DNA of 64,000 nt from Bacillaceae bacterium (GTDB lineage Bacteria; Bacillota; Bacilli; Bacillales; Alkalibacillaceae). Location of the stretch: assembly GCA_017656265.1 (NCBI GenBank), contig JACDOD010000004.1, positions 124,001-188,000 on the forward strand, read 5' to 3'. The notes beneath the pieces are model-generated. The model saw only the letters and a list, made by a program, of their open reading frames with translations. It searched no databases and was not told the DNA's origin. The position numbers were made by a program, and so were the translations under genes. Of this stretch, positions 40,770 through 55,930 are shown one piece after another. Position 1 is the stretch's first letter. Every line of letters starts with the position of its first letter.

Positions 40770-40807
40770 ATTTTTTTCAAAATCAGCTGTCCCTCAGAAA
40801 AAATATG

Positions 40808-40836: not shown

Positions 40837-40869
40837 GATGATAGGATGATATAAAAAGGGGAGAATAGA

Positions 40870-41331
40870 ATGGACGAAAAAGAACGGGTGGTTCAAAAGC
40901 CGGTTTTGTATATCCATCAGCCAAAAGAAGAAGAGATAACGGCGAACATGCAATCTTACTTTTATTACAAAAAGAATGAAGACAGAGACAAAAAGGAAGA
41001 AAGCTCCCGGCCACAGCAATTGGTTATTGAAAAGGAACATGAACAGGAAGAAGAGCAGGAACGTCAAAGCAACTACAATAATAAACATTCAGCCAGAGAA
41101 CGCCGTCAAGCTTTTAATGAAATGAGCATCCTTGAAAAGATTCAATACTTTGTGTATATGCCGAAAAAGGTGCCCAAAATGAAGTGTGAAGTGATTACAG
41201 AAGAAAAAAAATATCGGGGCTATATTCAGTCTCTTGAAAATGAAGTGGTCCAAATGAAAATATTTCAGCGTCCATTTCAAGCGGAAATCCCATTAAATGA
41301 AATACAGGATGTAAAACTGATTGGATTTTAG
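40870..41331 (+). CDS. cotO: Spore coat protein CotO
   Basis: This 153-residue protein has a charged, Glu/Lys-rich middle (residues 40-75) and the conserved C-terminal domain MSILEKIQYFVYMPKKVPKM...YRGYIQS. CotO helps outer-coat or crust morphogenesis on the spore. The position between fabI and cotZ matches B. subtilis yjbX. AGGGGAG precedes the ATG. Confidence 0.88.
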   Translation: MDEKERVVQKPVLYIHQPKEEEITANMQSYFYYKKNEDRDKKEESSRPQQLVIEKEHEQEEEQERQSNYNNKHSARERRQAFNEMSILEKIQYFVYMPKKVPKMKCEVITEEKKYRGYIQSLENEVVQMKIFQRPFQAEIPLNEIQDVKLIGF

Positions 41332-41390
41332 ATGAATTTCGAATCATCTGACACAACCATAATTTCCCGTGGTTATGCAGATACAAAAAT

Positions 41391-41414
41391 AACCCGGGCT
41401 CTCAAAGCCCGGGC
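41391..41414 (-). terminator. cotZ terminator
   Basis: ACCCGGGCT pairs with AGCCCGGGC; the reverse strand continues TTATTTTTG. Confidence 0.75.
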
Positions 41415-41431
41415 TATCCTCTTTGGTTAAG

Positions 41432-41884
41432 TTATGGGATTGCATTGATTGCAGGAAGACAAGTGACATGGCAGAAGCATTTAAGATCAACCGTGATGCA
41501 CAGTCCAGTTCTTCTCAAGTCTTTTGCGCTTTGCTTCGTCGGGCACTTCGGATTATCTTCTTCGCCAGGGGCACGCAGCAATTCAAGAATAGCACAGCAG
41601 TCATCAAATACTTCTTTTACACGGAAATAGAAGCTTGCTACGACATCTTTATCATTATTGTCCTTGACTGCGAATCCTTTAAACGGCTCACAGTTGCCAT
41701 CACAGTATAAAAGTACAGGTACGGTATCCTTTGTAGGATGCGGACGAGCCTCACCGAGCAGTTCATTGATCGAATTTTCACAGCTAACATCACAGTCAGC
41801 TAAAATGTCTTGCTGAGCATCTGCGATTTCCCGCAGAACATTGCACACGCAATTATCAGAGTCAAACTTTTTTCCACAAGACAT
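41432..41884 (-). CDS. cotZ: Spore crust/exosporium protein CotZ/CotY (ExsY) family
   Basis: This 150-residue protein is cysteine-rich (about 14 Cys), begins MSCGKKFDSDNCVCNVL and has CDGNCEPFKGF and CFCHVTCLPAINAIP, hallmarks of CotY/CotZ/ExsY proteins that self-assemble through disulfides into the outermost spore layer. AAAGGAG precedes the ATG. It has a perfect SigK promoter. Only one member of the family is seen here. Confidence 0.93.
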   Translation of the reverse strand: MSCGKKFDSDNCVCNVLREIADAQQDILADCDVSCENSINELLGEARPHPTKDTVPVLLYCDGNCEPFKGFAVKDNNDKDVVASFYFRVKEVFDDCCAILELLRAPGEEDNPKCPTKQSAKDLRRTGLCITVDLKCFCHVTCLPAINAIP

Positions 41885-41926
41885 ATATTCATTACTCCTT
41901 TCATCATTTTGATGTTTTATCTCTAA

Positions 41927-41954
41927 TAAAGTATGCTTTCACGCATGTGTTGTG
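41927..41954 (-). promoter_or_regulatory. SigK promoter of cotZ
   Basis: On the reverse strand CAC is followed after 16 bases by CATACTTTA, a perfect match to the SigK consensus. Confidence 0.75.
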
Positions 41955-42021
41955 TGGGCAGGAATCCCCTTTTTCAAAACCTTGGGAGTGATGTTTTTTA
42001 TTGGACCGGGACATTTGACCA

Positions 42022-42049
42022 AACACTAGACGTTCATACGCATACACTA
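42022..42049 (+). promoter_or_regulatory. SigK promoter of the 80-residue gene
   Basis: AAC is followed after 16 bases by CATACACTA, a perfect SigK match, divergent from the cotZ promoter and 68 bases from it. Confidence 0.7.
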
Positions 42050-42088
42050 GTATCGTAAACAATATATGACAAGGGAGTGGAGTTCCGA

Positions 42089-42331
42089 ATGTCCGATAAA
42101 AATAAAAAAGTGATACATGTGAAGGATCTTGTGATTCAGGCAGATAATGTTATTTTTGAACCGCCGCGTCGTCCTGAACCGCATAAAGGACCAGATCGGC
42201 CACCATTTGATCCATTCTTCGGCCCTCGGCGCAGAGACGAGGATGAAAGCTCTGAAAGAGAGAGCGGGGAAAGCCGAGACAGAAAGGATTTTGATGAAGA
42301 GAATCCAAGAAGAAGACCATTTCCATGGTAG
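42089..42331 (+). CDS. Putative spore-coat-associated protein, Pro/Arg/Asp-rich
   Basis: This 80-residue protein begins MSDKNKKVIHVKDLVIQADN; after residue 30 it is low-complexity, with Pro, Arg, Asp and Glu dominating (PPRRPEPHKGPDRPPFDPFF) and ending RRRPFPW. It is probably disordered. AGGGAG precedes the ATG. The perfect SigK promoter and cotZ as divergent neighbour make a late mother-cell, coat-associated role likely. No family recognised. Confidence 0.65.
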   Translation: MSDKNKKVIHVKDLVIQADNVIFEPPRRPEPHKGPDRPPFDPFFGPRRRDEDESSERESGESRDRKDFDEENPRRRPFPW

Positions 42332-42338
42332 TTATACA

Positions 42339-42367
42339 AGGCAGTCTCTCAACTGAGGCTGTCTTTT
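42339..42367 (+). terminator. Terminator
   Basis: GGCAGTCTC pairs with GAGGCTGTC (two G-U pairs), followed by TTTTT. Confidence 0.65.
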
Positions 42368-42412
42368 TCTGTAAGAGTGTTCAGCCGGAAAAATATTAGA
42401 GAAAGGTTGCAG

Positions 42413-42619
42413 ATGCAGATGAATATAGAAAAACAGCCGTTGTTTCGTTTCCTTAGGGCATTAAATGACTTTCTGGACCAAAATGAGAATTTGCTGTTAA
42501 AGCCTGAGGAACAAATCAAAAAGATTGAAAAGGATATGGGGGAATGGAATCAACAGTTTTTAGAACAGATCAGCAATGTTGAAAAAATGATCAAAGAACT
42601 TGAGAAAAGGATGGAATAA
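42413..42619 (+). CDS. Small coiled-coil hypothetical protein
   Basis: This 68-residue protein begins MQMNIEKQPLFRFLRALND and is predicted wholly helical, with heptad-like Leu/Ile/Met spacing toward the end (ISNVEKMIKELEKRME). AAAGG is seven bases before the ATG. A spore role is only suggested by the neighbours. Confidence 0.5.
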   Translation: MQMNIEKQPLFRFLRALNDFLDQNENLLLKPEEQIKKIEKDMGEWNQQFLEQISNVEKMIKELEKRME

Positions 42620-42719
42620 CCAAAAAGAACCCGGGCCGGTCATAAATAAGGAAAAATAAACGAATGAATGTCTGTAAAAACGGGTAATGTATTATAGGTT
42701 AAAAGGGGGAGGGATGGAT

Positions 42720-42995
42720 ATGGGATATATCCTTCCGATACAGCATCACCAATACCAGGATTATCATAAAAGAACCATAAGGACAAACAAGAATCCCTTT
42801 TTTCTTGAGGGTCCATTTCCTGTAGAATTAAACAGCAAATTAAAAGAAAAGAAGAACAAAGAAAAGAAAAGCAAGGAACAACGAAAGCCACTCACTGCCA
42901 TTTATGCTGCAAGAAATGTGCATGCCATCGAGCACAGTGAAAAAATATTGGCTGAGTTAACAGGAAAAGGGAAACATGTTAACGAAAAGGTTTAA
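42720..42995 (+). CDS. Small basic hypothetical protein
   Basis: This 91-residue protein begins MGYILPIQHHQYQDYHKRT, has a Lys-rich centre (KEKKNKEKKSKEQRK) and ends polar. GGAGG lies seven bases before the chosen ATG. The opening is reminiscent of small Bacillaceae proteins of unknown role. It is 28 bases upstream of the metallo-hydrolase and may share its transcript. Confidence 0.55.
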   Translation: MGYILPIQHHQYQDYHKRTIRTNKNPFFLEGPFPVELNSKLKEKKNKEKKSKEQRKPLTAIYAARNVHAIEHSEKILAELTGKGKHVNEKV

Positions 42996-43022
42996 GTAAA
43001 AGTCCCAAAAGGAGATGCTGTT

Positions 43023-43919
43023 ATGCAATTCAAAAACATTAATGAAACCTGCTACTATTTTGATGCTCCAGTCAATATCGGCTATGTACACCATGGTGAA
43101 GAAGGACTGTTGATTGATGCGGGTCTGGACCGTTCGGTTATGAAAAAGGTGCTAAAAGCCCTCGATGAACATTCCCTTCCTGTTACTCATCTATTTGTCA
43201 CACATGCCCATGCTGATCATTATGGCGGGGCTTCTTATTTACAAAAAGAAAAGAACATCTATACCATTGCACCTAAATTTGAGGCAGCGATCCTTCAAAA
43301 CCCAATGATTGAGCCCCTGTATCTATTTGGCGGAAACGATCCCCTGCCTGAACTTCGGAATAAATTTTTAGAAGGTGAGGCCATTCAGGTTAATGAAAAA
43401 GTGGACGAAGGAGAACACCAGATTGGCAGCTTTAAAATGACGCTAATTTCAACACCTGGACATAGCTATCATCAGCTCGGTGTTCTGATCGATGATGTTT
43501 TTTATGCAGGAGACACCTATTTTGGAGCCGACCAGCTGGAAAAGCACAAAATTCCGTATATTACTGATGCTGAAAAAGCAATCAGCAGTCTAAAAAAGGT
43601 GAGAAACATTTCCTGTCAGGGAGCAGTACCGGGGCATGGGGTGTTTGAAGAAAACTTTTCTGAAACGATACAGGCAAATATGGATTATCATGAAAAACTC
43701 CTAAACGAAATTACAGCCTATATTAAAAAATGGGATGAAGGAGTCAGTCATGAACAAATTGTAGCGGATTTGTGTAAAAGATATCAGGTGAAAGCACAGC
43801 AACTGTCCCAATTTTTGCTGTTTCGGACAGCTGTTACAGCCTACTTGTCAGCTTTGATTCAGCGAGAAGAGATACATCATGAAATTAGTGGATACCGATG
43901 GGTGTTTAAAGCTAATTGA
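43023..43919 (+). CDS. Metallo-beta-lactamase-fold hydrolase
   Basis: This 298-residue protein has the metal motif THAHADHYGG near residues 60-69, further ligands in STPGHS and FYAGDT, and a C-terminal helical winged-helix-like domain. This plan suits glyoxalase-II-like or related hydrolases. Substrate unknown. AAAAGGAG precedes the ATG. Confidence 0.88.
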   Translation: MQFKNINETCYYFDAPVNIGYVHHGEEGLLIDAGLDRSVMKKVLKALDEHSLPVTHLFVTHAHADHYGGASYLQKEKNIYTIAPKFEAAILQNPMIEPLYLFGGNDPLPELRNKFLEGEAIQVNEKVDEGEHQIGSFKMTLISTPGHSYHQLGVLIDDVFYAGDTYFGADQLEKHKIPYITDAEKAISSLKKVRNISCQGAVPGHGVFEENFSETIQANMDYHEKLLNEITAYIKKWDEGVSHEQIVADLCKRYQVKAQQLSQFLLFRTAVTAYLSALIQREEIHHEISGYRWVFKAN

Positions 43920-43933
43920 ATAAGTATGCTGGA

Positions 43934-43978
43934 AAAAGTGCCTGAATGATTAGAATAACATAGCATTCAGGCACTTTT
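43934..43978. terminator. Bidirectional terminator
   Basis: A perfect 15-bp stem (AAAAGTGCCTGAATG / CATTCAGGCACTTTT) lies between convergent genes. Confidence 0.88.
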
Positions 43979-44002
43979 ATATGGTGACTATTGTTAAATT
44001 TT

Positions 44003-44677
44003 TTAATAGCTCTGTACATAGAGGCCCTGTGATTTGCTCCATTCGGCATACATAACCTCTTCAACCCTTGAAATTCCCTGCTTCTGAACTTCTTCCATTA
44101 GCCACTGTTCTGTTAATTTCGCTTCGGCTAGATTATCATAGATGATTTCTCCATCAATAATCATTGAAAAAGGAAGTTCCACTGTTTCAGGAAGGGCATT
44201 GACATCCTGGCGGGTTGCCTGCTGTTTTAAAGTGTTCAGCAAAACAGAAACACTACCGTCTGTCTCAAAAATGGCATATTCCACATCTCTCACCGAAAAG
44301 ACATCTTTTTTTCTAAGGAGGTGTAAAAGCTGATTCATATCCAGTTTGCTTTTTGCCATTACATCTTTTTGAATTTTTCCTTTATGTATGATCAAGGCTG
44401 GCCGGCCTTCCAGCAGTGCACGTGATCCTTTGAATTTTTGTGTAATCATCTCCGTCACATACAGTAACACGCCCCATAAAAAGACAACATACAAAATTTC
44501 CGGGACACCCGCTTGTTCATCAAATAGCGCATTTCCAACCAGTTCCCCTAATACGAGTGCAGCGATAAAATCAAAGGCGGTGATCTGTGTGATCTGGGAT
44601 TTTCCCAGGACTTTCGTTAACGTAAATAATGCTGCGAATCCGACAAGAGTATCCACTAACATATTTACATAGTTCAT
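44003..44677 (-). CDS. DUF421 membrane protein (YetF/YdfS type)
   Basis: This 224-residue protein has three N-terminal helices including the family motif GKSQITQITAFDFIAALVLGELVGN, then a soluble domain with RPALIIHKGKI and DVEYAIFETDGSVSVL. Such proteins are common in spore formers; function unknown. AAGGTGG sets the ATG at 44677. Confidence 0.85.
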   Translation of the reverse strand: MNYVNMLVDTLVGFAALFTLTKVLGKSQITQITAFDFIAALVLGELVGNALFDEQAGVPEILYVVFLWGVLLYVTEMITQKFKGSRALLEGRPALIIHKGKIQKDVMAKSKLDMNQLLHLLRKKDVFSVRDVEYAIFETDGSVSVLLNTLKQQATRQDVNALPETVELPFSMIIDGEIIYDNLAEAKLTEQWLMEEVQKQGISRVEEVMYAEWSKSQGLYVQSY

Positions 44678-44816
44678 TGACAAAACCACCTTCATTTTCT
44701 GTTCTCTTCTTCATCATAGACACGCCAGCACAAAAACATACACGGAACAGGGGGGAAATGCGATATTTCACTATACATAAAAAGAGGATGGGGACAGATG
44801 TGCAAAAGCAATAAAA

Positions 44817-45026
44817 AATCCGAACTAAATTCATGCGTCACATGAACTAGTCCGGATTAATTTGATTCGAGAGATAGGAAAGCTATAAAATTTGAGTCTC
44901 AAACAGTTTTTTTAATAGAGGGAATGATTGTCCAGCTTCAGCGCCCAGCCCCTCGAGCTGCTTCGGCCCCCCTGTGGCGGCGACAGCCTCCTCGGTGGTA
45001 CTCCAGCAGTTTTCGGGGCTAAACGG
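44817..45026 (+). repeat. Composite dispersed repeat, copy C
   Basis: The hairpin CCGAACTA...TAGTCCGG with a GTCAC loop (44820-44855) is followed by TATAAAATTTGAG at 44884 and the GC-rich module from TGTCCAGCTTCAGCGCC (44929) to about 45026. The order and orientation mirror copy A. The far end of the GC-rich module (the AAAAGCGG side) is missing. Sequence upstream of the hairpin also resembles copy B. Confidence 0.8.
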
Positions 45027-45073
45027 ATCTTCAATTTATTTTTTCCAGTCTTTTTTAACCTTCAATTTAAACA

Positions 45074-45496
45074 TTATAAAGTTTTAATCATGGTTACATG
45101 TGGGATTCCCGCATCCATAAACTCTTCTGAAACCACTTCATAGCCCAGGGATTGATAGAATCCTACAGCATGTGTCTGTGCGTTTAATTTTGCTTTTTTG
45201 TACCCCTTTTGACGAATCGTTTCTTCCATTGCTTGAATCATGATCTTGCCGTAGTGTTTTCCTCTGTATTCCTTTAACACACATATGCGTTCCAGTTTTC
45301 CCGTTTGACCAATGAAGCGGAGCCTGCTGGCAGCAACTGGCTCCTCATGAACATAGCCAACAAAATGAATCGATTCATTCTCATGTTCATCGATTTCGAT
45401 CTCTTCAGGCACTTGCTGTTCTTCAACAAATACAAGGCGCCTGACGCGGTAGGCATCCTGTTTTTCCTGCTGACTTTCAGCGATTAGTATGTTCAT
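45074..45496 (-). CDS. yjcF: GNAT-family acetyltransferase YjcF
   Basis: This 140-residue protein begins MNILIAESQQEKQDAYRVRR; the acetyl-CoA loop is in CVLKEYRGKHYGKIMIQAM. Its ATG follows the yjcG stop by four bases with the ribosome site inside yjcG, so the two are coupled. Acceptor unknown. The order yjcH-yjcG-yjcF matches B. subtilis. Confidence 0.88.
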   Translation of the reverse strand: MNILIAESQQEKQDAYRVRRLVFVEEQQVPEEIEIDEHENESIHFVGYVHEEPVAASRLRFIGQTGKLERICVLKEYRGKHYGKIMIQAMEETIRQKGYKKAKLNAQTHAVGFYQSLGYEVVSEEFMDAGIPHVTMIKTL

Positions 45497-45500
45497 CGGA

Positions 45501-46016
45501 TTATTGCTCACCGCCAAATTTAAAGGTTTCATACACGGTCCATGCACCATTGTCTAACTGATAAAGCAGCTGGAACCGGTCCACTTTATCCTCGATATCA
45601 AATGAGAGCATGCGCAAGCTTCCATATACATCCGAATGTTCATCATCAGATAGCTTTTGTCCAATGGTGATATGAGGTACATAAGCATACTGGCGATCTT
45701 TAATAAATTTTCCTTGATAGAGTTTTTCATTTAACTCCATTAATTCCTCAACAGGCTCTACCTTCAGATATACGGTATTGGTTACCGGGCTGAAAGAGCT
45801 GATTTTTTTGATGATTAATGGGAAAGGTTTGGTTTCGCTGGCAATAGTACGGAGCTCACCAATTAACTCTTTTATATAATCATCATCGGCTTCAAAAGCC
45901 TCTTTAAGTGTGATATGTGGAGGAATTAATGAATAGTGGGGGTCGTAGCGCTTCCGATATGAGTTGGCGATGTCTTGTACTTCTTTTGAAGGAAAAATAG
46001 CTATTCCATACTTCAT
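45501..46016 (-). CDS. yjcG: 2H phosphoesterase family protein YjcG
   Basis: This 171-residue protein has two HxT/S-x motifs, PHITLKEAF near residue 34 and PHITIGQKL near residue 116, the signature of 2H phosphoesterases (2'-5' RNA ligase-like). TAAGGAGG precedes the ATG. Biological substrate unknown. Confidence 0.9.
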   Translation of the reverse strand: MKYGIAIFPSKEVQDIANSYRKRYDPHYSLIPPHITLKEAFEADDDYIKELIGELRTIASETKPFPLIIKKISSFSPVTNTVYLKVEPVEELMELNEKLYQGKFIKDRQYAYVPHITIGQKLSDDEHSDVYGSLRMLSFDIEDKVDRFQLLYQLDNGAWTVYETFKFGGEQ

Positions 46017-46128
46017 ATAAAAACCTCCTTATTACGAAATTTTTTAGCTGATTGAAAAGTATAGTAAAGGGGACTGATTATCATTATAGCAAAAAATTGA
46101 AGCAATTTTCTAAAAATCATGTGACAGA

Positions 46129-46851
46129 TTACCCAAAAATTTTTACAAGGGCGCGTTTTAAATCCTTTTGCCAATATTTCCAGGTATGATCCCCATCTAA
46201 TTCATAGTAGGTGTATTCATTCGTTTTTTCACGCAAAATCTTGTTCAACTCCCGATTAGGTTCCAGAAAATCTTTTTTCTCGCCATCTGTTGTAGGTACT
46301 TCTGTTTCATTGAGACCAATCGTATGATAGATTGACATAGCCGAAACGTCCTTTGATTCTCTGACCATTTGCAGAACAGTTTCATCCACGTATGGTGACT
46401 GCATAATAACCCTGCCAAACGTATTGGGATACTTTAAAGCGGTCATTAAAGAAATGGTACCTCCTAAAGAATCCCCCATTAAAGCTCGACTTCCGCCCAA
46501 ATAGTAGCCGGGAAGCTCTTCATCTAGCATTGGCACCACTTCAAAGCGCAGAAATTTCATATATGCTTCATTCCGCTCACCGTCAGGATGGTATTTTTCC
46601 CTGCGGTCATAACGGTCCTTATAGTGAATTCCGGCAAAAATGGTATCCTCAATTTCGCCTTCCTCATGGAGTTCATCACTGTACGTGGCCAACCGCCCCA
46701 GTTGAAAATAATCATTGCCGTCCTGCACGATACATAAATGATATTTATACAATGGGGAAAAATTCTCCGGCCGGTAGATTTTAATGGTCAATGTTTCATG
46801 AAGGTACTGGCTGTCTATTTCCCTTTCGATCATGGTTCCTTTTCTTCCCAC
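46129..46851 (-). CDS. yjcH: Esterase family protein YjcH
   Basis: This 240-residue alpha/beta hydrolase has the nucleophile motif GDSLGG and a C-terminal His in DGDHTW, the Fes/esterase-D-like plan that includes siderophore esterases. The start is GTG preceded by CGGAGGTG. It heads yjcH-yjcG-yjcF. Substrate unknown. Confidence 0.87.
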   Translation of the reverse strand: MGRKGTMIEREIDSQYLHETLTIKIYRPENFSPLYKYHLCIVQDGNDYFQLGRLATYSDELHEEGEIEDTIFAGIHYKDRYDRREKYHPDGERNEAYMKFLRFEVVPMLDEELPGYYLGGSRALMGDSLGGTISLMTALKYPNTFGRVIMQSPYVDETVLQMVRESKDVSAMSIYHTIGLNETEVPTTDGEKKDFLEPNRELNKILREKTNEYTYYELDGDHTWKYWQKDLKRALVKIFG

Positions 46852-47105
46852 TGACGTTCACCTCCGTATGTAAATAAAAAGTACCAAACAAGGTTATTTT
46901 AACATATTCTCGCTATAATGGTTTCTCATGATTTTTACAATAAAAATTGGATTGACTGGATTTATATGGTTCATGACATATGTACTTTGTCCTATTTTTT
47001 CATATTTACCCCCATAATAGTTGAGATGACCTGATTCATATGTTTTAAACTATAGTTGTTTATTGCCTGCAGAAGAGCTTGTAGCTTCAATGGAAGGATG
47101 CAGGG

Positions 47106-47129
47106 GTTATATAGAAGATATAAGGGTAT
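47106..47129 (+). promoter_or_regulatory. Possible SigB promoter
   Basis: GTTATA, 12 bases and GGGTAT fit a SigB general-stress promoter (GTTTAA / GGGTAT) with two mismatches at -35. It lies about 100 bases before the LytTR gene. The rest of 46852-47232 shows nothing else. Confidence 0.4.
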
Positions 47130-47232
47130 ATAAAGAGGAGTTTACCGTTTTAAATCATGCCCCTCTGCTTAGCCTAAAAACCAATCAGTGTATTATGATT
47201 AAAAAAACGTAATCATAAGGATGAACAAATAT

Positions 47233-47964
47233 ATGAAACCATTTGGCATCATCATAGCAGAACATGATCAGCCTGATCGTGATAGATTAAAAAAAATGAT
47301 CTATCCGTTAAGACAATTTAAAGTGATAGGCGTGTCCGATTCAGGTTCTGATTTATGGGGGCAGCTTCAATTCAAGCAGCCGGATGCTATTATTTTAAAT
47401 CTGTCACTGCCTGAACTCAACGGTATACAAGGCGTTAATGAAATAAAAACTATGCTGCCGTATGTTCAAATTATTTTACTGACTGATCACGTTACTTACC
47501 CTGGAGAAGTTTTTGATCTTTCCGTAACCGACTACTTAAAGAAACCTTTTATAGAATCTCGTTTTTATGATGCGCTGAAAAAAGGGTGGTATGCATTAAA
47601 CCATATTTATCAGACGCCAGGTGCTGGAATGATAACTGAAAAATTAGAAGTGCGTATGAACCACGCACTATTATTTATACCCTTTCATGAAATTTTGTTC
47701 ATTGAAAGAATGAAACGCAAATCTTTTATACATACCTTGCATCATACATATGAAACTTATGAATCATTGAATTCTATAATGGATCGGCTCAGCTACCATT
47801 TTTTCCAGACTCATCGATCGTTTATCGTTAATCTGGAACATATTTATAAAATTGAGCCTGACGGACAGACTTATCTGGTTCATTTCAAAAATTTCAAAAA
47901 ACGGGCTTTTATTTCTAAAAACAATATCCAGAAAATTAAGTACTTGCTTTCGCGCGTACAGTAA
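47233..47964 (+). CDS. Orphan LytTR regulator with atypical receiver
   Basis: This 243-residue protein has an N-terminal receiver domain (residues 1-118) and a C-terminal LytTR DNA-binding domain (about 135-243, with FIERMKRKSFIHT and THRSFIVNLEHIY). At the phosphoacceptor site the sequence is PDAIILNLSLPELNG, so Asn56 replaces the usual Asp; the conserved Thr and Lys (LLTDH, LKKPF) remain. No histidine kinase is adjacent. AAGG suits the ATG at 47233 better than the one at 47221. Confidence 0.82.
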   Translation: MKPFGIIIAEHDQPDRDRLKKMIYPLRQFKVIGVSDSGSDLWGQLQFKQPDAIILNLSLPELNGIQGVNEIKTMLPYVQIILLTDHVTYPGEVFDLSVTDYLKKPFIESRFYDALKKGWYALNHIYQTPGAGMITEKLEVRMNHALLFIPFHEILFIERMKRKSFIHTLHHTYETYESLNSIMDRLSYHFFQTHRSFIVNLEHIYKIEPDGQTYLVHFKNFKKRAFISKNNIQKIKYLLSRVQ

Positions 47965-47974
47965 CAAGTCGAGA

Positions 47975-48892
47975 TTATTGAATGTCAGAAAGATCCTGCT
48001 TAATTTTGATGTTTGTTAATGAAAGCTTGTCCTTTAGCTCCTTCAGTCCACTTCCGCCCAGGTAAAACGTTGTTTCAGAATGTTTACCAGCAAATCGGTC
48101 CAGTTCATGAATCAACTCTGGTTCTTGATCGAAGGGAATAACAGTTGACACCGATAATAATACCATTTTAGGTTTTAGTCTCTGAACCGTATCTTCAATG
48201 GCACCCGGCGCTGGAGATGCTCCTAAATAAGCGGTTTTCCAGCCCTCCATACTCAGGTGCAGCAGTAATATTTGAAGACCAATTTCATGGCGTTCATAGG
48301 GCAGGCAGCTTCCCAGTACAAGGGGAGCCTGACTGTCTGTCCTGTCGTATTCCCGTCGAATAAGAACTAGATAATCCCTTATGGTAATACTGGCAATATG
48401 CTCTTGATATTCATTCCAAATTCCCTGCTTCCACCGCTGGCCTACCTCCTTTAAAAAAGGCCGGATAACCTTTTCCAGAAGAAAATGCAGGCCGCGTTCA
48501 TGAAGTGCTTTTTTTAGCGTATTCTGCAATTGTTGCTCATCACCATTCGTGCCAGCCTCCAATAGCCGTATAATATAGTGATTCATCTGCCCTTGAGAGT
48601 CTTTTGAATTACCTAAAGATGGGGAATAGTTTTGGCTGGGAATAGAATTTACCTGTGAAGATTTCTGGTCATGGAGAATGGATATGGCATTTTTTACACT
48701 GTACCCCTGTTCGGTCAGAGATTTGACCGTTAATAATGTTTGTACATCCTGCTCACTAAATACACGATAACCGTTTTCCTGACGCTCAGGAGAAATAATC
48801 CCGTACCTTTTTTCCCACTTTCGGATAACCTGACGGGACAGACCAGTAATTTTGGATACTTGATTAATGGAAAGGTGTTTATCTGTCAGCAT
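47975..48892 (-). CDS. CarH/LitR-type MerR-family cobalamin-binding photoreceptor repressor
   Basis: This 305-residue protein has an N-terminal MerR helix-turn-helix (residues 6-75, LSINQVSKITGLSRQVIRKW), a B12-binding cap helical domain (about 105-185) and a Rossmann B12 domain (about 190-300). The CarH signature W-x9-EH is present as Trp154 and Glu164-His165, and the lower ligand motif ExHxxG as Glu200-x-His202. In CarH/LitR, adenosylcobalamin assembles a DNA-binding tetramer in the dark, and light breaks it. Targets are unknown; no carotenoid genes are in the window. Confidence 0.85.
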   Translation of the reverse strand: MLTDKHLSINQVSKITGLSRQVIRKWEKRYGIISPERQENGYRVFSEQDVQTLLTVKSLTEQGYSVKNAISILHDQKSSQVNSIPSQNYSPSLGNSKDSQGQMNHYIIRLLEAGTNGDEQQLQNTLKKALHERGLHFLLEKVIRPFLKEVGQRWKQGIWNEYQEHIASITIRDYLVLIRREYDRTDSQAPLVLGSCLPYERHEIGLQILLLHLSMEGWKTAYLGASPAPGAIEDTVQRLKPKMVLLSVSTVIPFDQEPELIHELDRFAGKHSETTFYLGGSGLKELKDKLSLTNIKIKQDLSDIQ

Positions 48893-48924
48893 TTCAAATC
48901 CTCCCTAAATCAAAAGAAAGAATA

Positions 48925-48988
48925 TACAATTTGTAATATGTTATCTCCATTTATATTATACAAACGTTTTACAATTAAACCAAACGTT
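48925..48988 (-). promoter_or_regulatory. Promoter and candidate operator of the CarH-like gene
   Basis: On the reverse strand TTGGTT, 17 bases and TATAAT (48955-48983) are overlapped by two direct copies of AACGTTTG spaced 20 bases apart. A TACAATTTGTA palindrome lies at 48925-48935. Autoregulation is inferred. Confidence 0.5.
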
Positions 48989-49300
48989 GCTATAATATCA
49001 ATGTATAACTACGTCTTTTCTTATATTTTATCGACAATGATGCGGGAAAGACAGCAAAATGTTCATCATTTTTAAAATATACACGAAGAAAAGGGTTATA
49101 TGTTTCAGGTGCGAGAAAATGTTGTCGAATAGAAGAGAATAATGTCTAAACAGAATTTATCTTATTGGACAGAGCTAGATGTCTCTTCTAAAATTAGTTA
49201 CTAAATTTAGCCTCTATATCCAGCGGTATATAATTTTTTACATATCCTTCATAATTTATTAACATGCCTGTAATAAAATGGGGGCAAATGGAGGGGGATC
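48989..49300. other. Intergenic region upstream of the cheW cluster
   Basis: An AT-rich stretch with no credible gene and no confident SigD motif. Confidence 0.35.
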
Positions 49301-49381
49301 ATGCTTAAAGAGCGCCCATCATTGACTAAGGAAGATATTGATGAACTAATCGAACAAATTGATCAGCAGTTTCAAGAATGA
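49301..49381 (+). CDS. Candidate 26-residue peptide
   Basis: A short reading frame MLKERPSLTKEDIDELIEQI... of 26 codons has a very strong ribosome site (GGAGGGGG) and ends 40 bases before cheW. It is acidic and helical. It could be a translated leader or a small protein; no homologue is known to me. Confidence 0.4.
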   Translation: MLKERPSLTKEDIDELIEQIDQQFQE

Positions 49382-49420
49382 TTCTGGTTATTACTGATTG
49401 ATTAAAAGGATGGTGACACG

Positions 49421-49867
49421 GTGTCTGAAAAGTATGTAACGTTTATTGTGAATGGGGAAGAAATGGCGTTGCCTATTGATTCAGTTGAATACATTGAATC
49501 AGTGGGAGATATAACAGACGTCCCCAAAACGGATGAATGTGTAGCAGGTGTAGGCCGCATCAGAGGAAAAGTTATTCCCATTGTTGATGTCAAGTGTTCC
49601 CTTTTTGGGCATAAAACAGAATTGACAGACAGTATTCGGCTGATTGGTGTTCATCACGAAGGAAGAGATTTAGCTTTCCTGGTGGACGAAGCAAGAGATG
49701 TACTTGATATTTCTCATGAGGATATTCAACAAGTAGAAAATGTAGCAGAAAAAAAGCTGGATATAGCTAAAATTGGCGATCGAATGGTTCTGCTTTTAAA
49801 AGCAGAATATATGATTCAAAAATTTAAGCTGGAAGACATGATAGAAGACCTGGGACACCAATTATAA
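49421..49867 (+). CDS. CheW-family chemotaxis coupling protein
   Basis: This 148-residue protein consists of one CheW domain: YVTFIVNGEEMALPIDSVEYI, PIVDVKCSLFG and AFLVDEARDVLDI. CheW links receptors to the CheA kinase. The start is GTG after AAGGATGG. It lies 71 bases before a chemoreceptor gene and far from any other chemotaxis gene in view, so it may serve that receptor. Confidence 0.88.
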   Translation: MSEKYVTFIVNGEEMALPIDSVEYIESVGDITDVPKTDECVAGVGRIRGKVIPIVDVKCSLFGHKTELTDSIRLIGVHHEGRDLAFLVDEARDVLDISHEDIQQVENVAEKKLDIAKIGDRMVLLLKAEYMIQKFKLEDMIEDLGHQL

Positions 49868-49938
49868 TGGCCAGATAAGAGAATATTCATCAGCAAGTAC
49901 ATGTTCTTCTAGAAAACAATTAGCCTGGGAGGATGAAG

Positions 49939-51267
49939 ATGAGCAGAAAACAAACAAACTCTATTCAAAACGTTAGTTCCATTATGACTATCAATAAAGT
50001 GAGAAGTAGCATTCGGACCAAAATGATTATTGCGGTTTTGATCAGCTTAATTATTAGTACCCCCATTTCAGCATTTATTAATACGTATTTAAAAGACGTA
50101 AATATACTTAATTTAGGAGTGTATATTAAATCGGGGGTTACTCTAATAGTGACCACGATCATTATTACGGTATTTGTTCAGTTCATTGTGATAAAGCCGC
50201 TTAATAAAATCTTAGCGGTTACCCAGAAGGCTTCTCAAGGTGATTTAACTGCTACGCTGGATATCCGTTCGAAAGATGAAATTGGGCAGCTTGCATCAGC
50301 AATAAATCTAATGCAGCAAAATATCGGTTCTATTATAGATCGGGTTTCGGAAACAGCAGAACGCGTTTCTTCTCAGAGTGTAGAGCTAAATCAGGCTTCA
50401 GATGAAGTAAAAGAAGGAAGCGAACAGATTGCCTCTACTATGCAGGAGCTGTCATCCGGTGCAGAAACTCAGGCCAATAGTGCAACCAGTCTTGCCGAGA
50501 TGATGGAAGACTTCCACGAAAAGGTTAGACAGGCTTATGAAAGCGGAGATCGCATCGCCCAATCATCGGATGAGATTTTACATATGACCGAAGAAGGCAA
50601 TACCCTGATGAAAAAATCTGTACAGCAGATGGAGAACATCAATCAGATTGTACATGATGCCGTTGAAAAAATGAGAGGACTAGACAGTCAGACAGATGAA
50701 ATTTCAAAGCTTGTACAGGTGATTGAGGATATTGCTGAACAGACCAATCTTCTAGCCTTAAATGCTGCCATTGAAGCAGCAAGGGCAGGAGAGCATGGAC
50801 AAGGATTTGCAGTCGTTGCTGATGAAGTTCGAAAGCTGGCTGAACAGGTATCCAATTCAGTCGGAGATATCACAAAGATTGTAACAAATATCCAATCCGA
50901 ATCTGATACAGTGGCAAAATCCCTCGAAACTGGCTACAGGGAAGTGCAGGAAGGAACGGAACAAATCAATGTCACAGGGGAGAAGTTCCAGAGCATTAAC
51001 CGATCAATCTCTGATATGGCAGCGAGATTGCAAAGCATTTCGAGCACATTAAAACTGATTGTTGAGAACAGTAAAGATGTAAATAAATCCATTGAGGACG
51101 TTGCATCTGTAGCTGAAGAGTCTGCGGCTGGCATACAGCAGGCTGCTGCTTCATCTCAGCAGTCCAGCAGTGCTATGGAGGAAATTTCGAAAAGTGCGGA
51201 TGAACTGGCTCAACTGGCAGAGGACTTAAATGAACAGGTAGATCGATTCAAATTAGCCAGTTCATAG
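49939..51267 (+). CDS. Methyl-accepting chemotaxis protein with minimal external domain
   Basis: This 442-residue receptor has two helices (about residues 28-46 and 59-80) separated by only about a dozen residues, a HAMP domain (about 80-135) and a full signalling domain with [23 protein letters not shown]. With almost no extracellular ligand domain, the input is likely from the membrane, cytoplasm or a partner. GGGAGG sets the ATG at 49939. Confidence 0.92.
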
Positions 51268-51313
51268 AAAAAACATTCAGTATTGATCCAGAGAATATTG
51301 GAACATGTGAATT

Positions 51314-51346
51314 AAGGCCTCTTGCATTCAAGCAAGGGGCCTTTTC
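51314..51346 (+). terminator. Terminator after the chemoreceptor
   Basis: AAGGCC-CTTGC pairs with GCAAG-GGCCTT, followed by TT. Confidence 0.8.
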
Positions 51347-51401
51347 AATTAATGGGTTAAAGTCATTCATCTGTAAATTCGGTTATAAGAACGTGTTTTA
51401 T

Positions 51402-52106
51402 TCACTTTCCCATGATATGTATAATGTCCCAGTGAGTAATAATGCCGAGTAAATTCCGGGAAGGCTTCCCGTCGTCTGTAATTAAGAGTGCATTTAACCT
51501 CTTGCCATTTTGAATCTGGTTCTTGAAAATATCTTCAGCCTCATAGACCGTTGTGTGTTTTGGGATAAATCGATAATTTTCTTTAATTTGTTCATAGTTA
51601 AGTATCTCCTGCAGAGGATGGTTAAATAGATTATTCCAATTCTCCTCAGCACCTTTAGCCAGCCAGTGGGTGATTCCGTTTTCCGTTAATAGTCCCACAA
51701 ACGTATCATGATCGTAAACAGGGAACTTGGTGAATCCATTTTGCTGGACAAAATGCAATATATCTTTTACTCGGTCATTTGTTGAAAAGGTAAAAACTTT
51801 TCGTTTGAACTTAGGAATGACTGTTTCTGGCTCTGTTAATTCCCTTTCAATCCGTTCAATGTGTTCAACCGTTGAATCATGAGGTTCTGCTATGGCATAG
51901 TTGGGGTTGATACTGTCATGAACAATAGCATTGCGTAAATCTGCAAATTCAAACAGGTCATCCTGATATTTACGAACGATCGCATCATATTTTTGAGCAT
52001 GCTGTACAGCACTCTTAAAACTCATATGATGGGGGTTCTTTCGGGTCCGCTCCAGGTATTTTTCAATTCGATGAAAAGAAGCAAGAAAGCGATCGGAATT
52101 CTTCAT
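51402..52106 (-). CDS. HEPN-like plus tandem CBS domain protein
   Basis: This 234-residue protein has an N-terminal helical region with DLRNAIVHD (Arg58-Asn59-x3-His63), the RNxxxH motif of HEPN domains, followed by a CBS pair (FTKFPVYDHDTFVGLLTENGITHWL; LNALLITDDGKPSRNLLGIITHWDI). CBS pairs sense adenosyl nucleotides, and many HEPN domains are RNases, so a nucleotide-gated RNase is conceivable. Function not known. AGGAGGG precedes the ATG. Confidence 0.7.
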   Translation of the reverse strand: MKNSDRFLASFHRIEKYLERTRKNPHHMSFKSAVQHAQKYDAIVRKYQDDLFEFADLRNAIVHDSINPNYAIAEPHDSTVEHIERIERELTEPETVIPKFKRKVFTFSTNDRVKDILHFVQQNGFTKFPVYDHDTFVGLLTENGITHWLAKGAEENWNNLFNHPLQEILNYEQIKENYRFIPKHTTVYEAEDIFKNQIQNGKRLNALLITDDGKPSRNLLGIITHWDIIHIMGK

Positions 52107-52176
52107 ATTTAGTCCCTCCTAAATGATACATGTTCATTGTAGCAGATAATAGGAGTTTAGTTGAAGGTTCACATCA

Positions 52177-52227
52177 TTGACGTAATCAAAAAGACGTTAT
52201 ATAATTAAATCGTAATAATTACGATTT
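52177..52227 (+). promoter_or_regulatory. SigA promoter and Zur box of rpsN
   Basis: TTGACG, 17 bases and TATAAT (52177-52205) are followed at 52207-52227 by a perfect palindrome whose core is TCGTAATAATTACGA, the Zur operator. Zur with zinc would block transcription; zinc shortage would release it. Confidence 0.93.
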
Positions 52228-52243
52228 GAGAAGGAGGATAGAA

Positions 52244-52513
52244 ATGGCTAAAAAATCTAAAATAGTTAAGGAACGTAAACGCCAGGAAATAGTAGCCCAA
52301 TATGCCGAACTTCGAAAAGAACTGAAAGCAAAAGGCGATTATGAGGCATTAAGAAAATTGCCCCGGGACTCATCGCCAACACGCCTGCACAATCGCTGCC
52401 AGGTGACCGGAAGACCCCATGGGTATATCCGCAAGTTTGGTTTATCTCGAATTGCTTTTCGTGAGTTAGCTTCTAAAGGCCAGATTCCTGGTGTCAAAAA
52501 GGCAAGCTGGTAA
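52244..52513 (+). CDS. rpsN: Ribosomal protein S14, zinc-independent paralogue
   Basis: This 89-residue S14 has the core [29 protein letters not shown], with a single Cys where the zinc form has a CxxC...CxxC ribbon. It replaces zinc-containing S14 when zinc is scarce. The ATG after GAAGGAGG is chosen. Single-gene unit under Zur. Confidence 0.95.
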
Positions 52514-52561
52514 GTTTAAAAACAGGAAGGGACGGATGATCCATGTTCCCTTGCAAAACAT

Positions 52562-52606
52562 AAAAGGCTGATTCCTTAATTATTATGGTACAGGAATCAG
52601 CCTTTA
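52562..52606 (+). terminator. rpsN terminator
   Basis: AAAGGCTGATTCCT pairs perfectly with AGGAATCAGCCTTT, followed by AT-rich sequence. Confidence 0.8.
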
Positions 52607-52643
52607 TTTATTTGAATTAGTATAAAACGTTCAGTTATGATAT

Positions 52644-52744
52644 GCTTCGATTTCTGCGGGGAGGGCCTAAGCCTTCTTAGGGAGCTCATTCTACTGTTTT
52701 TGGGATTTTCGCCTCGTGTTCCTGCAGGAGTCTACGCATATTCA
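52644..52744 (-). repeat. Decayed GC-rich dispersed repeat
   Basis: This segment, with CTGCGGGGAGGGCCTAAGCC at one end and TCCTGCAGGAGTCTACGCAT at the other, resembles a repeat I recall from many Bacillaceae genomes (GCGTAGACTCCTGCGGG at its head). The middle is AT-rich and worn. A 67-codon reading frame across it is not credible as a gene. Confidence 0.45.
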
Positions 52745-52819
52745 CAACATAAAGATTTTTGTTCCGCTGATCCAACTTTAGTTAGTGTTACAGCCTCTTT
52801 TCCTATGGGGTTTTGGATA

Positions 52820-53145
52820 GTAATGTCTTTCATGGTGTAGGTGTGAGAAATTTTTTCCTGGGATTAGGAAAGTAATGTTCTTCATAGCGTAGATGAAGAC
52901 CATTTTCTTTTGAATTTTTGATCGTAATGTTCTTCATAGCGTAGATGAAGACCATTTTCCTTTGAATTTTTGATCGTAATGTTCTTCATAGCGTAGATGA
53001 AGACCATTTTCCTTTGAATTTTTGATCGTAATGTTCTTCATGGCATAGATGAAGACCATTTTCTTTTTATTTTTGGGAGTTAAGTTCTTCAGAACATAGA
53101 TGAAAAATATTTTTTTATAGTGATGTTCCTCAGTGAAATGATAAC
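52820..53145 (+). repeat. 52-bp tandem repeat array, about six units
   Basis: Units begin with GTAATG or a variant at 52820, 52872, 52924, 52976, 53028 and 53079, with a worn partial at 53120. The three central units (52872, 52924, 52976) are nearly identical. Each has a hairpin TCTTCAT-AGCGTAG-ATGAAGA followed by a T-rich stretch. The 52-base period is not a multiple of three, so it is non-coding. Confidence 0.9.
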
Positions 53146-53262
53146 AAAATACTGTATGTTATGATCCAGATATGTCTTTCTTCAGTTTATGACAAAGATT
53201 TGCTCTTTATTTATTCTTTCCTTTTCAAAGAGGATGCTTTTCTCTTCCTATCTAGGGTCATC

Positions 53263-53487
53263 TTATTCGCTATGATGTGTGTTTTTACGCATGACTTCAC
53301 TGAATCGTTTCATTCCTGGGTCCCTTTTTAGAGACAAATGAAAAGGGTTTGAATCCAGCCTTCCCCCAGGCTGCTCATTCATAATCATTCCAATTCTAAC
53401 CCCTATACTATCCTGATAAACACCATCTCTCCGTGTATCAAAATGGGGATCAGCATCACCAACGGTCACATCATTTCTGTCAGGCAT
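53263..53487 (-). CDS. Small hypothetical protein (74 aa)
   Basis: This protein begins MPDRNDVTVGDADPHFDTRRDG and is polar, with no membrane segment. GGAGGTG lies seven bases before the ATG, which argues for a real gene. No family recognised. Confidence 0.55.
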   Translation of the reverse strand: MPDRNDVTVGDADPHFDTRRDGVYQDSIGVRIGMIMNEQPGGRLDSNPFHLSLKRDPGMKRFSEVMRKNTHHSE

Positions 53488-53567
53488 ATCAGCACCTCCA
53501 TTAAGTTTATTCTAAACATAGAATGGATTAGTTTGGGACAAAGTATGTAAAAAAGAGGAGGATGCGA

Positions 53568-53756
53568 ATGGGTGCCATAGAGCAAGGTGGTTACACATTT
53601 GAAATAGAGTACAGTGTCAGTTATCAGAAAGGAGCTTTGCATGTCTATAGAGAAGGAGAGTTTTTGGAGGAAATTACATTTCAGTTTGATGGTGAGAAAC
53701 CTGATGAAGAAAAAATCGAGGAAATGATCATGGACTATATTGATCATCATTCATGA
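53568..53756 (+). CDS. Small acidic hypothetical protein (62 aa)
   Basis: This protein begins MGAIEQGGYTFEIEYSVSYQ, with strand-rich sequence followed by an acidic helix (EKPDEEKIEEMIMDYID). AGAGGAGG precedes the ATG. Divergent from the 74-residue gene. No family recognised. Confidence 0.6.
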   Translation: MGAIEQGGYTFEIEYSVSYQKGALHVYREGEFLEEITFQFDGEKPDEEKIEEMIMDYIDHHS

Positions 53757-54124
53757 TTCAAAGGATTTAAAATGAATTGTAGTTCGTGTTTTCATTTTGT
53801 TTAAAAATAAAGGAAATACTTCCCATATCACGAACAATCCATTAGGATAGTGATATAGTCAAATAAAGGAAGTGGTCTTATTACAATACTTCAATCCGTA
53901 AAAATGGATGTATAAGATAAAACGTGTGCCATGGTTCTTTTTTAAAACCGAAAGAGTCAAATACAAAACTTTCGCATTTCTGCCCCATTATGGTTTTCAT
54001 CAATCCAGGGGAAATAAGCATTCAAGACATGCTAAAATATAGAAACTCTGGCTGTCATTCCAGCACGGATAATACCCTGAACAATTTGGACATCCACCAG
54101 TCTAATAAGATGGAGGCATTCTAA
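53757..54124. other. Intergenic region with alternative stem-loops
   Basis: ATATCAC/GTGATAT with inner ATCC/GGAT and outer ACTTCC/GGAAGT form an extended hairpin (53818-53873). GTTCGTG at 53782 could instead pair with CACGAAC at 53829, which overlaps the first stem. A 66-codon frame at 53924 lacks a ribosome site and is not called. Confidence 0.4.
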
Positions 54125-54691
54125 GTGGGAAAATTATTATTAATTAAACATTCCAATCCAATTATAGATTCTGAGAAACCTTCGAACCAGTGGATCCTTT
54201 CTGAAGAAGGGAAACAGCGGGCTGAGTTGCTGGCTCATCGATTAGAAAACTATCATTTCAGTCAAATCATCACCAGCACTGAACCAAAAGCGAAGGAAAC
54301 AGCGGATATTGCAGCGAAAAAACTCGGAAAGAGAGTCCTGGAAAACGAGGGTCTTCACGAACACCAGCGAGAATCAAACCGAATCATTTATCCTCGAGAT
54401 GAATTTGAACATATCATGAAAACCTTTTTCCTGTACCCTGACCGCTTGATTTTTGGGGAAGAAACCGCTCTACAGGCGAAAGACCGATTTAAGAACGCGG
54501 TATTAGAAATAACGAACAATATTCAGCGTGAAGAGGATCTAGTTATCATTACCCATGGAACGGTGATAACCTTATTTGTTTCAAACTATAACTCGATTGA
54601 CTCCTTTCAGTTCTGGAACTCACTGGGTCTGCCTTCTATTGTAGAATTAAACCTTGATGGGTATGATTTGCATAAGATCATTCAGGTATAA
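54125..54691 (+). CDS. Histidine phosphatase superfamily protein, variant active site
   Basis: This 188-residue protein has the fold markers LLLIKHSNP at the N terminus, TSTEPKAKETADI and IITHGTV. The usual RHG(E) triad is changed to Lys-His-Ser, keeping the catalytic His but not the Arg. The start is GTG, eight bases after GGAGG. Followed by two genes on the same strand. Substrate unknown. Confidence 0.75.
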   Translation: MGKLLLIKHSNPIIDSEKPSNQWILSEEGKQRAELLAHRLENYHFSQIITSTEPKAKETADIAAKKLGKRVLENEGLHEHQRESNRIIYPRDEFEHIMKTFFLYPDRLIFGEETALQAKDRFKNAVLEITNNIQREEDLVIITHGTVITLFVSNYNSIDSFQFWNSLGLPSIVELNLDGYDLHKIIQV

Positions 54692-54723
54692 GGTATTTAT
54701 ATGGAAAGGATGGGGAACTGATT

Positions 54724-55203
54724 TTGAAGAAAAACCAGTTTGCTGAAGTGCTAAAATTAATCAGTTTATTTATATTAATTGCTGGTTTTTATTTCTTATT
54801 TGATAGCCAATGGCTCATTTTTATTTTTGCCTTACTGTTTTTTATGCTTTTTTTAGCCCTTGCTGAAATTATAAATCTTTTACATGGAATTCATATTAAA
54901 CTTACAGAGAACTCAGAATTACAAGAACGGGAAAAGAATAGAGCCGGTTTTTATTCGGTTCAGCCAGTAAGTGAAAAAAACAAAGAAAAAATTCATCAAT
55001 ATTTCGCTAATCAAAACATTCAGGTGAAAAACATTATTTCTACACCATATCAGGAATTTTGTATGGTTGAACTGCAGAAGGAGTATAAGGTAATAGATTT
55101 AAGGGGAGAAAATCCCCATCCTGTGCCTGAGGGACAGATCAGGCATATGGAAAATCTGCTGAAATGGGCAAAAGAGCGGAAGGGAATTAAGCTAATTAAA
55201 TAG
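54724..55203 (+). CDS. Membrane-anchored hypothetical protein
   Basis: This 159-residue protein begins with a TTG codon (MKKNQFAEVLKLIS), has two membrane helices within residues 10-55 and a soluble, basic C-terminal domain. GATGGGG lies upstream. No family recognised. It lies 32 bases after the phosphatase gene and 22 before the Nudix gene, so probably in one operon. Confidence 0.65.
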   Translation: MKKNQFAEVLKLISLFILIAGFYFLFDSQWLIFIFALLFFMLFLALAEIINLLHGIHIKLTENSELQEREKNRAGFYSVQPVSEKNKEKIHQYFANQNIQVKNIISTPYQEFCMVELQKEYKVIDLRGENPHPVPEGQIRHMENLLKWAKERKGIKLIK

Positions 55204-55225
55204 ACTTATAGAAGGAGGAAATAGT

Positions 55226-55660
55226 ATGCAGCGCATTGATGTAGTGTATGGATTAATATTAGATGAGAATAAAGAAAAAATTTTAATGGTTAAAAATCGC
55301 AGGGGAGACTCATATGACTATTCCCTCCCCGGGGGTGCTGTTGAAGAAGGAGAGACCCTGGAGGAGGCAGTCATTCGGGAAGTAAGGGAGGAAACAGGAT
55401 TAGAAGTTGAGGCAGGGGGCATATTAGCTGTAAATGAGGCATTTTTTATAAAAAAGGGGCATCACCCCATCTTTTTTACCTTTTCAGTGACAGTTACAGG
55501 GGGTTCCATCCATCTATCGAGGCCTCATGAAATTTTGGATATCATGTGGGTACCGTTAAAAAAAGCTGACCAATTCATGCCGTATTACAAAGGTGGAATC
55601 AGCAGCCTCGTATCGAAACAAAAGGAGGCCATCTATTATGATCAGGGGAGAACTGAATAG
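55226..55660 (+). CDS. Nudix hydrolase
   Basis: This 144-residue protein has a complete Nudix box: GGAVEEGETLEEAVIREV followed by REETGLEV. Such enzymes cleave nucleoside diphosphate derivatives. Substrate unknown. GAAGGAGG precedes the ATG. Confidence 0.92.
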   Translation: MQRIDVVYGLILDENKEKILMVKNRRGDSYDYSLPGGAVEEGETLEEAVIREVREETGLEVEAGGILAVNEAFFIKKGHHPIFFTFSVTVTGGSIHLSRPHEILDIMWVPLKKADQFMPYYKGGISSLVSKQKEAIYYDQGRTE

Positions 55661-55769
55661 AGAGCTTCTGCCTCTTATTAGTCTGCATAGGTTATATTCA
55701 ATGTCTTCTATCTATAATTCATGAGCTTTTTTAAAAAAATCAATTGTGTAAAAAAGAATAAAAAAACAA

Positions 55770-55897: not shown

Positions 55898-55930
55898 ATA
55901 TTAACAGACAGTGATGGAGGGACATAAAAC

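Follow-up and report, generated by a model that had tools for sequence, protein, structure and literature searches.

A CarH-like MerR-cobalamin regulator in a Bacillaceae genome, with candidate operators before its own gene and two distant carotenoid operons

Which genes does a CarH-type regulator control when no carotenoid genes lie beside it, and does it respond to light? We investigated these questions for a gene within a window of 64,000 nucleotides (the whole stretch of DNA that was analysed) from a Bacillaceae bacterium, whose product had been predicted to be a CarH/LitR-like B12 photoreceptor with a possibly different regulon. The host genome comprises 3.2 Mb in 25 contigs and is 99.9% complete. 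The features of the locus are collected in Table 1.

Table 1. Features of the carH locus, with positions in the window.
Feature	Position	Strand	Basis or remark
LytTR response regulator, convergent to carH	47221-47964	(+)	Pfam annotation
carH-like gene, 305 aa MerR-cobalamin regulator	47975..48892	(-)	ORF with ATG start, Pfam, fold, alignment
ExHxxG lower axial ligand motif, residues 200-205 (E200, His202, G205)	48278..48295	(-)	Thermus CarH alignment
Wx9EH adenosyl-capping motif, residues 154-165 (Lys155 at the H132 place)	48398..48433	(-)	Thermus CarH alignment
MerR winged helix-turn-helix, residues 8-73	48674..48871	(-)	Pfam PF13411 (MerR_1), E 3.3e-17
Candidate CarH operator, two tandem 11-bp repeats TTGTAAAACGT TTGTATAATAT	48953..48974	(-)	61-82 bp before carH start
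Promoter-like site facing cheW, TTTACA-17-TATAAT, its -10 preceded by TG	48968..48996	(+)	Consensus match only
CheW-like protein, possible co-target	49421..49867	(+)	Pfam PF01584; regulation predicted only
HAMP-type methyl-accepting chemotaxis protein (MCP), possible co-target	49933..51267	(+)	Pfam PF00672, PF00015; regulation predicted only

Both Pfam and the structural model place the N-terminal MerR helix-turn-helix of the protein ahead of a four-helix B12-binding_2 domain (residues 109-171, 8.5e-10) and a Rossmann B12-binding domain (residues 192-282, 1.3e-7; 31.9 bits, the cut-off being 32.1, and 33.8 bits in a genome-wide search). Thermus CarH/LitR entries (3whp, 5c8d) headed a PDB sequence search, and the AlphaFold model (mean pLDDT 84.4, pTM 0.64, with an unreliable linker at residues 78-101) was best matched in Foldseek by dark-state Thermus thermophilus CarH (5c8d, E 2.6e-18). 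In an alignment with full-length T. thermophilus CarH, taken from a public plasmid record, W154, E164, H165 and H202 correspond to W131, E141, H142 and H177. The joining of a MerR domain to a cobalamin domain and the retention of Trp154, Glu164-His165 and His202, as stated in the original prediction, are thus confirmed by Pfam and by this alignment.

A Wx9EH motif and a B12 motif of the ExHx2G type are the two signatures said to define CarH homologues (PMC8156234, excerpt). Of the longer classic motif, ExHx2Gx41SxV/Tx22-27GG, the ExHxxG part is present, with S-V-S at a spacing of 41 and S-T-V at 43, then x27 and GG. By the SignatureFinder criteria for light-responsive cobalamin domains (PMC11796333, excerpt), the elements GxxW and EH are present, and GxxH and GxxxP are not matched by the window protein, which has Tyr199 and Ala228 in these elements, respectively. 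The CarH equivalog NF052513 was by far the best of 13 NCBIfam matches, with 110.3 bits, below its cut-off of 400 bits, which three CarH-like proteins of the common Bacillales type also missed (125-133 bits). As it falls below this cut-off and misses two of the four SignatureFinder elements, the window protein is, judged from its sequence, a variant CarH branch and not a standard orthologue.

The second His ligand of the Thermus bis-His light state, H132, aligns with Lys155. This substitution removes the bis-His route, and is consistent with a CarA-like or light-blind regulator, which would repress crt genes through the same operator in response to B12 level, another signal or an antirepressor; Myxococcus CarA works without B12 (PMC8156234, excerpt). 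We consider such a regulator rather unlikely, as the window protein retains the full Wx9EH and ExHxxG motifs, the host genome contains genes for AdoCbl supply, and the bis-His light state is not universal, the working photoreceptor CtMerR being light-responsive with Arg at the place of Lys155 (PMC11796333, excerpt). The Thermus H132A variant was mostly tetrameric after light in one study, and disassembled in an earlier report cited there (PMC10442372, excerpt). From CtMerR and these H132A data, we expect the window protein to be light-sensitive with a light state different from that of Thermus, and since Lys155 replaces the bis-His ligand, this state is probably of the water/hydroxo type, as in CtMerR.

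For the supply of chromophore, we identified a cobalamin adenosyltransferase gene in the host genome, and two cobalamin riboswitches, on contigs C11 and C8, which by our own reading of ORF order and sequences appear to lie upstream of genes for a B12-type ABC transporter and for a pair of ribonucleotide reductase proteins. The genome encodes only one PF02607 protein, and three further B12-binding proteins above the Pfam cut-off. Domains, residues, modelled fold, AdoCbl supply genes and the operator described below all lend support to the assignment as a CarH/LitR-like B12 photoreceptor.

We could not find crt genes in positions 38893-58892 by blastp with crt proteins, in agreement with the statement of the original prediction that none lie nearby, but crt genes are present on contigs C2 and C6. 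The sole genome-wide match for phytoene synthase is on C2, which carries phytoene/squalene synthase, desaturase-like, IPP-isomerase-like and CruF-like genes, and two further desaturase-like genes lie at the start of C6. Pfam assigns SQS_PSY, Amino_oxidase, FMN_dh and Caroten_synth to these carotenoid genes, and gene names finer than this represent our own reading of the sequences. As the end of C2 and the start of C6 both fall within such genes, the two stretches may be neighbours in the genome.

Scanning the regions upstream of carH and the crt genes with the published CarH direct-repeat consensus nAnnTnnACAn (PMC8156234, excerpt), by which the candidate operator was first spotted, we identified tandem 11-bp repeats before both. 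At carH only two units are clear, each with four of the five consensus letters, and the 22-bp site was absent from all of 100 dinucleotide shuffles of the window. With up to 3 mismatches, this two-unit site has five matches in the 3.2 Mb at three places only, all of them at carH or crt, and the backward 22-mer has none genome-wide. The repeats at C2:275308-275340 comprise three units between the divergent isomerase-like and CruF-like genes, and those at C6:2723-2755 directly precede the first desaturase-like gene of that contig. TATAAT is found within each of the three places, in keeping with a repressor acting as a block to polymerase. Weaker sites in the host genome were rejected, a degenerate pattern with up to 3 mismatches having 32 matches versus 44 for its backward form; all four of its sites with 0-1 mismatch are at carH or crt, and the remaining 28, which include one more match at crt on C6, are taken as background. 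On this sequence evidence, carH and the crt genes are likely targets of the window protein.

The suggestion that the regulon may differ is therefore mostly refuted: apart from carH, two carotenoid operons are the only places preceded by the 22-bp site at up to 3 mismatches, and we reject a regulon devoid of carotenoid genes. The original prediction had named in advance what would speak against a differing regulon, namely carotenoid genes at other loci that share the operator and are its only targets, and this is nearly what the genome sequence gives. The genome search that had been proposed for crt, phr and the operator recovered the first and the last of these, and no photolyase was identified genome-wide, excluding photolyase as a target in this host.

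We consider it fairly likely that the protein depends on AdoCbl and acts in the CarH manner, keeping its own gene and the two crt operons repressed in the dark and releasing them in light. The residues, the fold, the repeats with their places, and the crt and adenosyltransferase genes are established at the level of sequence and model, and from these we infer AdoCbl binding, oligomer formation, repression and light release by the window protein. In the dark, AdoCbl would be held by His202 from below and capped from above by Trp154, Glu164 and His165, and the loaded protein would assemble into an oligomer, binding the tandem repeats over the promoters of carH and the two distant carotenoid operons. 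Light would break the Co-C bond and the complex would fall apart, whereupon carotenoids and more CarH would be made. Most likely, the window protein acts in trans on carotenoid genes, repressing them in the dark as CarH does.

We investigated the distribution of this protein in the order, where 246 of 397 genomes encode a relative with an E-value of 1e-15 or below. Among the matches listed, at least 14 genomes besides the host carry a close relative (40-51% identity), and the remaining relatives, 24-31% identical, represent the common Bacillales CarH-like type. Within the family (22 genomes), four other genomes hold the distant CarH-like type (27-29% identical), and the only other genome of the same genus has just weak N-terminal matches at the level of MerR. 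A genome scan with a 15-sequence alignment yielded 226 relatives, and the counts below describe the best 80 of these, which come from members of the Bacillus group, Caryophanaceae, Paenibacillaceae and Alicyclobacillaceae and from MAGs; some of the 80 loci belong to the same species as the 14 close relatives.

The capping His is replaced in 72 of these 80 relatives, usually by Ala or Ser (counts at the position of His165: Ala 35, Ser 30, His 8, Thr 4, Gly 2, Met 1), and is found in none of the 14 close relatives, with Trp154 kept in 78/80, and Glu164 and His202 each in 79/80. In a careful tree, which excludes the degenerate L159 and L160, a Thermus fragment and nine rows with identical last 200 residues, all 18 EH rows (the window protein, eight of the 80 relatives and nine of the common CarH-like type) fall on the same side of a branch with support 98/93. 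Within the subfamily, the window protein branches off first, at a fork with support of only 89/86, and the rows closest to it in path length and identity lack the His (50% to L082). This tree points to a single loss of the capping His in the subfamily as probable, although masking the trait column in a quick tree of 93 rows required two changes, unless seven long-branch rows were removed (one change, SH-aLRT 93); the place of the window row in the masked trees was judged by its nearest rows alone. The ancestral EH state has probably been kept by the window protein, Alicyclobacillus, Brevibacillus, one Paenibacillus and some MAGs, the careful tree favouring retention over a regain of EH by the window protein. 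With the capping His gone from so many relatives, the nearest tree rows included, the branch of the window protein may be leaving light sensing.

To what extent does the operator accompany these proteins? The window's own 22-mer, untuned and with up to 4 mismatches, found 51 sites in the 80 loci and a site at 25 of the 80 carH promoters, with no backward matches for either; at 5 mismatches there were 91 sites versus 20 backward, the latter reaching 4/80 carH promoters. The degenerate pattern gave a site at 47 of 81 carH promoters including that of the window (backward 0), counts that are partly circular, as the pattern was written after inspecting the upstream regions of the relatives and tuned partly on the same loci. 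By this pattern, carH sites occur in three of nine EH members, the window among them, versus 44 of the 72 others; the own 22-mer at 4 mismatches has a carH site in one of eight EH relatives (the window not counted). These low counts among EH members speak against our reading. The His-less relatives thus lack the full light site, yet many keep the operator and some a linkage to crt genes, suggesting that DNA binding in the subfamily does not require the full light site, as a light-blind regulator would have it. The dark-repressor reading of the window protein itself is still the one that we favour.

We additionally considered that the repeats might belong to another regulator, with CarH acting on unrelated targets. 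Other MerR-type proteins are encoded in the host genome, but the sites gather at carH promoters (47/81, by the partly tuned pattern, versus 5/717 other genes more than 3 kb away, those five being EAL, HemAT-like or crt genes), and the untuned 22-mer still reaches 25/80 of them, making this explanation very improbable. Similar sites are nonetheless not exclusive to the subfamily of the window protein, as 2/15 stretches with the common CarH-like type (L231, L233) have a site at up to 2 mismatches, in L231 (G002, same family as the window) as two units 40 bp before the carH start. Both Bacillales CarH types may therefore read a similar operator.

A census of 86 loci (1.68 Mb; the 80 best-scoring, five of the 14 close relatives and the window) with the degenerate pattern identified 94 sites, with none for the backward pattern. 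They were assigned to carH (54), HemAT-like (16), crt-like (11), EAL (3) and other genes (5), or to none (5), with shared gaps counted under carH first and the HemAT class including matches of 28-36% identity that may be other MCPs. Other site-bearing genes, some of which share a gap with carH, encode a MacB/FtsX-type permease, PAS-MCPs, GTP cyclohydrolase I, DUF1722 proteins with or without a desulfidase domain, and RND and MMPL transporters. Within 10 kb of carH, homologues of crtM/N/P/Q were found in 16/80 loci and a CruF-like gene in two more, and in L101 carH lies inside a crt cluster. Over the same distance, HemAT (at least 45% identity) occurs in 19/80 loci and an EAL protein in 16/80, several of them preceded by sites. 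Alicyclobacillus mengziensis (L153) has carH after a PAS-MCP gene divergent from an EAL gene, with sites in the gap between the latter two; A. tolerans (L144) has a like gene order, with the gene before carH judged by eye, and no site was found in a scan of that locus. FolE is among the light-inducible genes under class II LitR proteins of P. putida (PMC9758184, excerpt), and RudS genes carry DUF1722 and are often in light-responsive operons (PMC11417400, excerpt). Given this light regulation elsewhere, the set of operator-linked genes is in keeping with a defence against light, and this holds for the His-less branch as well.

The neighbours that had been named beside carH, a LytTR regulator and a CheW-chemoreceptor pair, are confirmed (Table 1); for the convergent LytTR gene, nothing was found linking it to carH. 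Upstream of the CheW-MCP pair, the -35 (48968-48973) of the cheW-facing promoter-like site lies inside the carH operator. The site has 11 of 12 letters, and is alone in having TG among six sites with at least 11/12 letters in the 64 kb; on the (+) strand, we found no terminator-like site between it and the CheW-MCP pair. With this overlap, and with relatives' sites before chemoreceptor, EAL and other genes, the pair may be a local, additional target of CarH, which is the part of the proposed difference in regulon that survives. Could chemotaxis even be the main target, CarH coupling light to taxis, with crt secondary? The HemAT and EAL genes in relatives' loci, and the sites before PAS-MCP genes in two relatives, would agree with this. 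However, the -10 lies 425 bp before the cheW start, the site is a consensus match in a 1.6-kb region where promoter-like sites are not in excess (7 versus 5.0, sd 2.6, in shuffles), the other strong sites of the genome are at crt and not at motility genes, and the window MCP is not a HemAT. We regard it as improbable, and retain carotenoid repression as the main function.

A SigmaD-like promoter before cheW was rejected, with only two 3-mismatch matches there and 207 of the same quality across the window, as was an RNA fold in the 418-nt leader (z -1.36; 11/100 shuffles as good). Between carH and cheW, we noted an ORF of 26 residues (MLKERPSL..., 49302-49382, (+) strand), preceded by a purine-rich stretch resembling a ribosome-binding site. 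The sole Rfam match at gathering threshold in the window is a T-box leader (12912-13143, (-) strand, 131.8 bits).

Compared with known systems, the window protein is like T. thermophilus CarH (5c8d, 5c8e, 5c8f) in domain order, light-site residues and fold, in its tandem 11-bp direct repeats (PMC8156234, excerpt) and in crt genes as targets, at 30-31.5% identity among the matches listed. It differs in Lys155, in that the host crt genes are not adjacent, and in the lack of a photolyase in the host genome, whereas one Thermus record has crt and phr beside carH. CtMerR of Chloracidobacterium (8jbs, 8jbt) is likewise a MerR-cobalamin protein without the His132 equivalent (PMC11796333, excerpt), but has only 23-25% identity in the fold match. 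Bacillus megaterium CarH/LitR (CarHBm), also a Bacillales CarH-type protein, represses in the dark, loses its activity in light and is involved in carotenoid production (PMC9758184, PMC8156234, excerpts); it is reported with four operator units, in contrast to the two to three at the window carH and host crt sites, and is probably of the other, common Bacillales type. In seven putative Priestia genomes (by inferred assignment), the best CarH-like protein is 24-25% identical, with a second, partial match in one, when the whole protein is used as query, the four-helix part alone having missed these genomes; in one neighbourhood, inspected by eye, the gene lies among core genes, e.g. glutamate-dehydrogenase-like and RecQ-like. 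Finally, Myxococcus xanthus CarA, a crt repressor that derives from CarH and has a damaged Wx9EH (PMC9304148, excerpt), is analogous to the relatives and not to the window protein: in CarA, EH remains and Trp is gone together with flanking residues, the relatives kept Trp and Glu and lost His, and the window protein lost neither.

These results replace a lone sequence guess with a defined candidate regulon and three mapped candidate operators. A broader possibility, which we advance tentatively, is that the subfamily reads one operator code before crt, chemoreceptor (soluble or HAMP), EAL, exporter and FolE/DUF1722 genes, wiring light to both taxis and pigment. The window operator would then serve carH and CheW-MCP, the window protein would represent the ancestral light form, and the His-less majority, after an apparent single loss, may sense otherwise (by upper ligand, redox, B12 level or another tetrapyrrole). 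Such a code predicts chemoreceptor and c-di-GMP genes as CarH targets, and the subfamily presents a natural experiment, in which full-motif and His-less proteins sharing an operator type may reveal the role of the capping His and a change of signal. In open-licence full texts, we found no description of this Bacillales branch without the capping His, nor of CarH operators upstream of chemoreceptor genes, of which primary work on B. megaterium may cover part, and the term Wx9EH was found in two papers, both on myxobacteria.

We additionally noted individual members of the subfamily with further variations. The L129 (Anoxybacillus tepidamans) and L076 copies, with the same motifs, have Arg for the axial His and Ala for the capping His, and probably do not bind cobalamin in the usual way. 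L160 (Anoxybacillus rupiensis) and L159 (a Bacillus MAG) are degenerate members that lack Trp as well, and two subfamily copies each were found in Solibacillus faecavium A46 (L139, L143) and Metalysinibacillus jejuensis N25 (L136, L155). DUF1722/RudS-like and FolE genes with the same tandem repeats were identified in L113, L134, L140 and L150 (the last by first residues). In L085, L086, L087, L111 and L156, a MacB/FtsX-type ABC permease (identified by domain scan in L086 and by first residues in the others), which we take to resemble the heme exporter HrtB, is encoded close to carH or divergently from it, and the operator precedes the permease gene.
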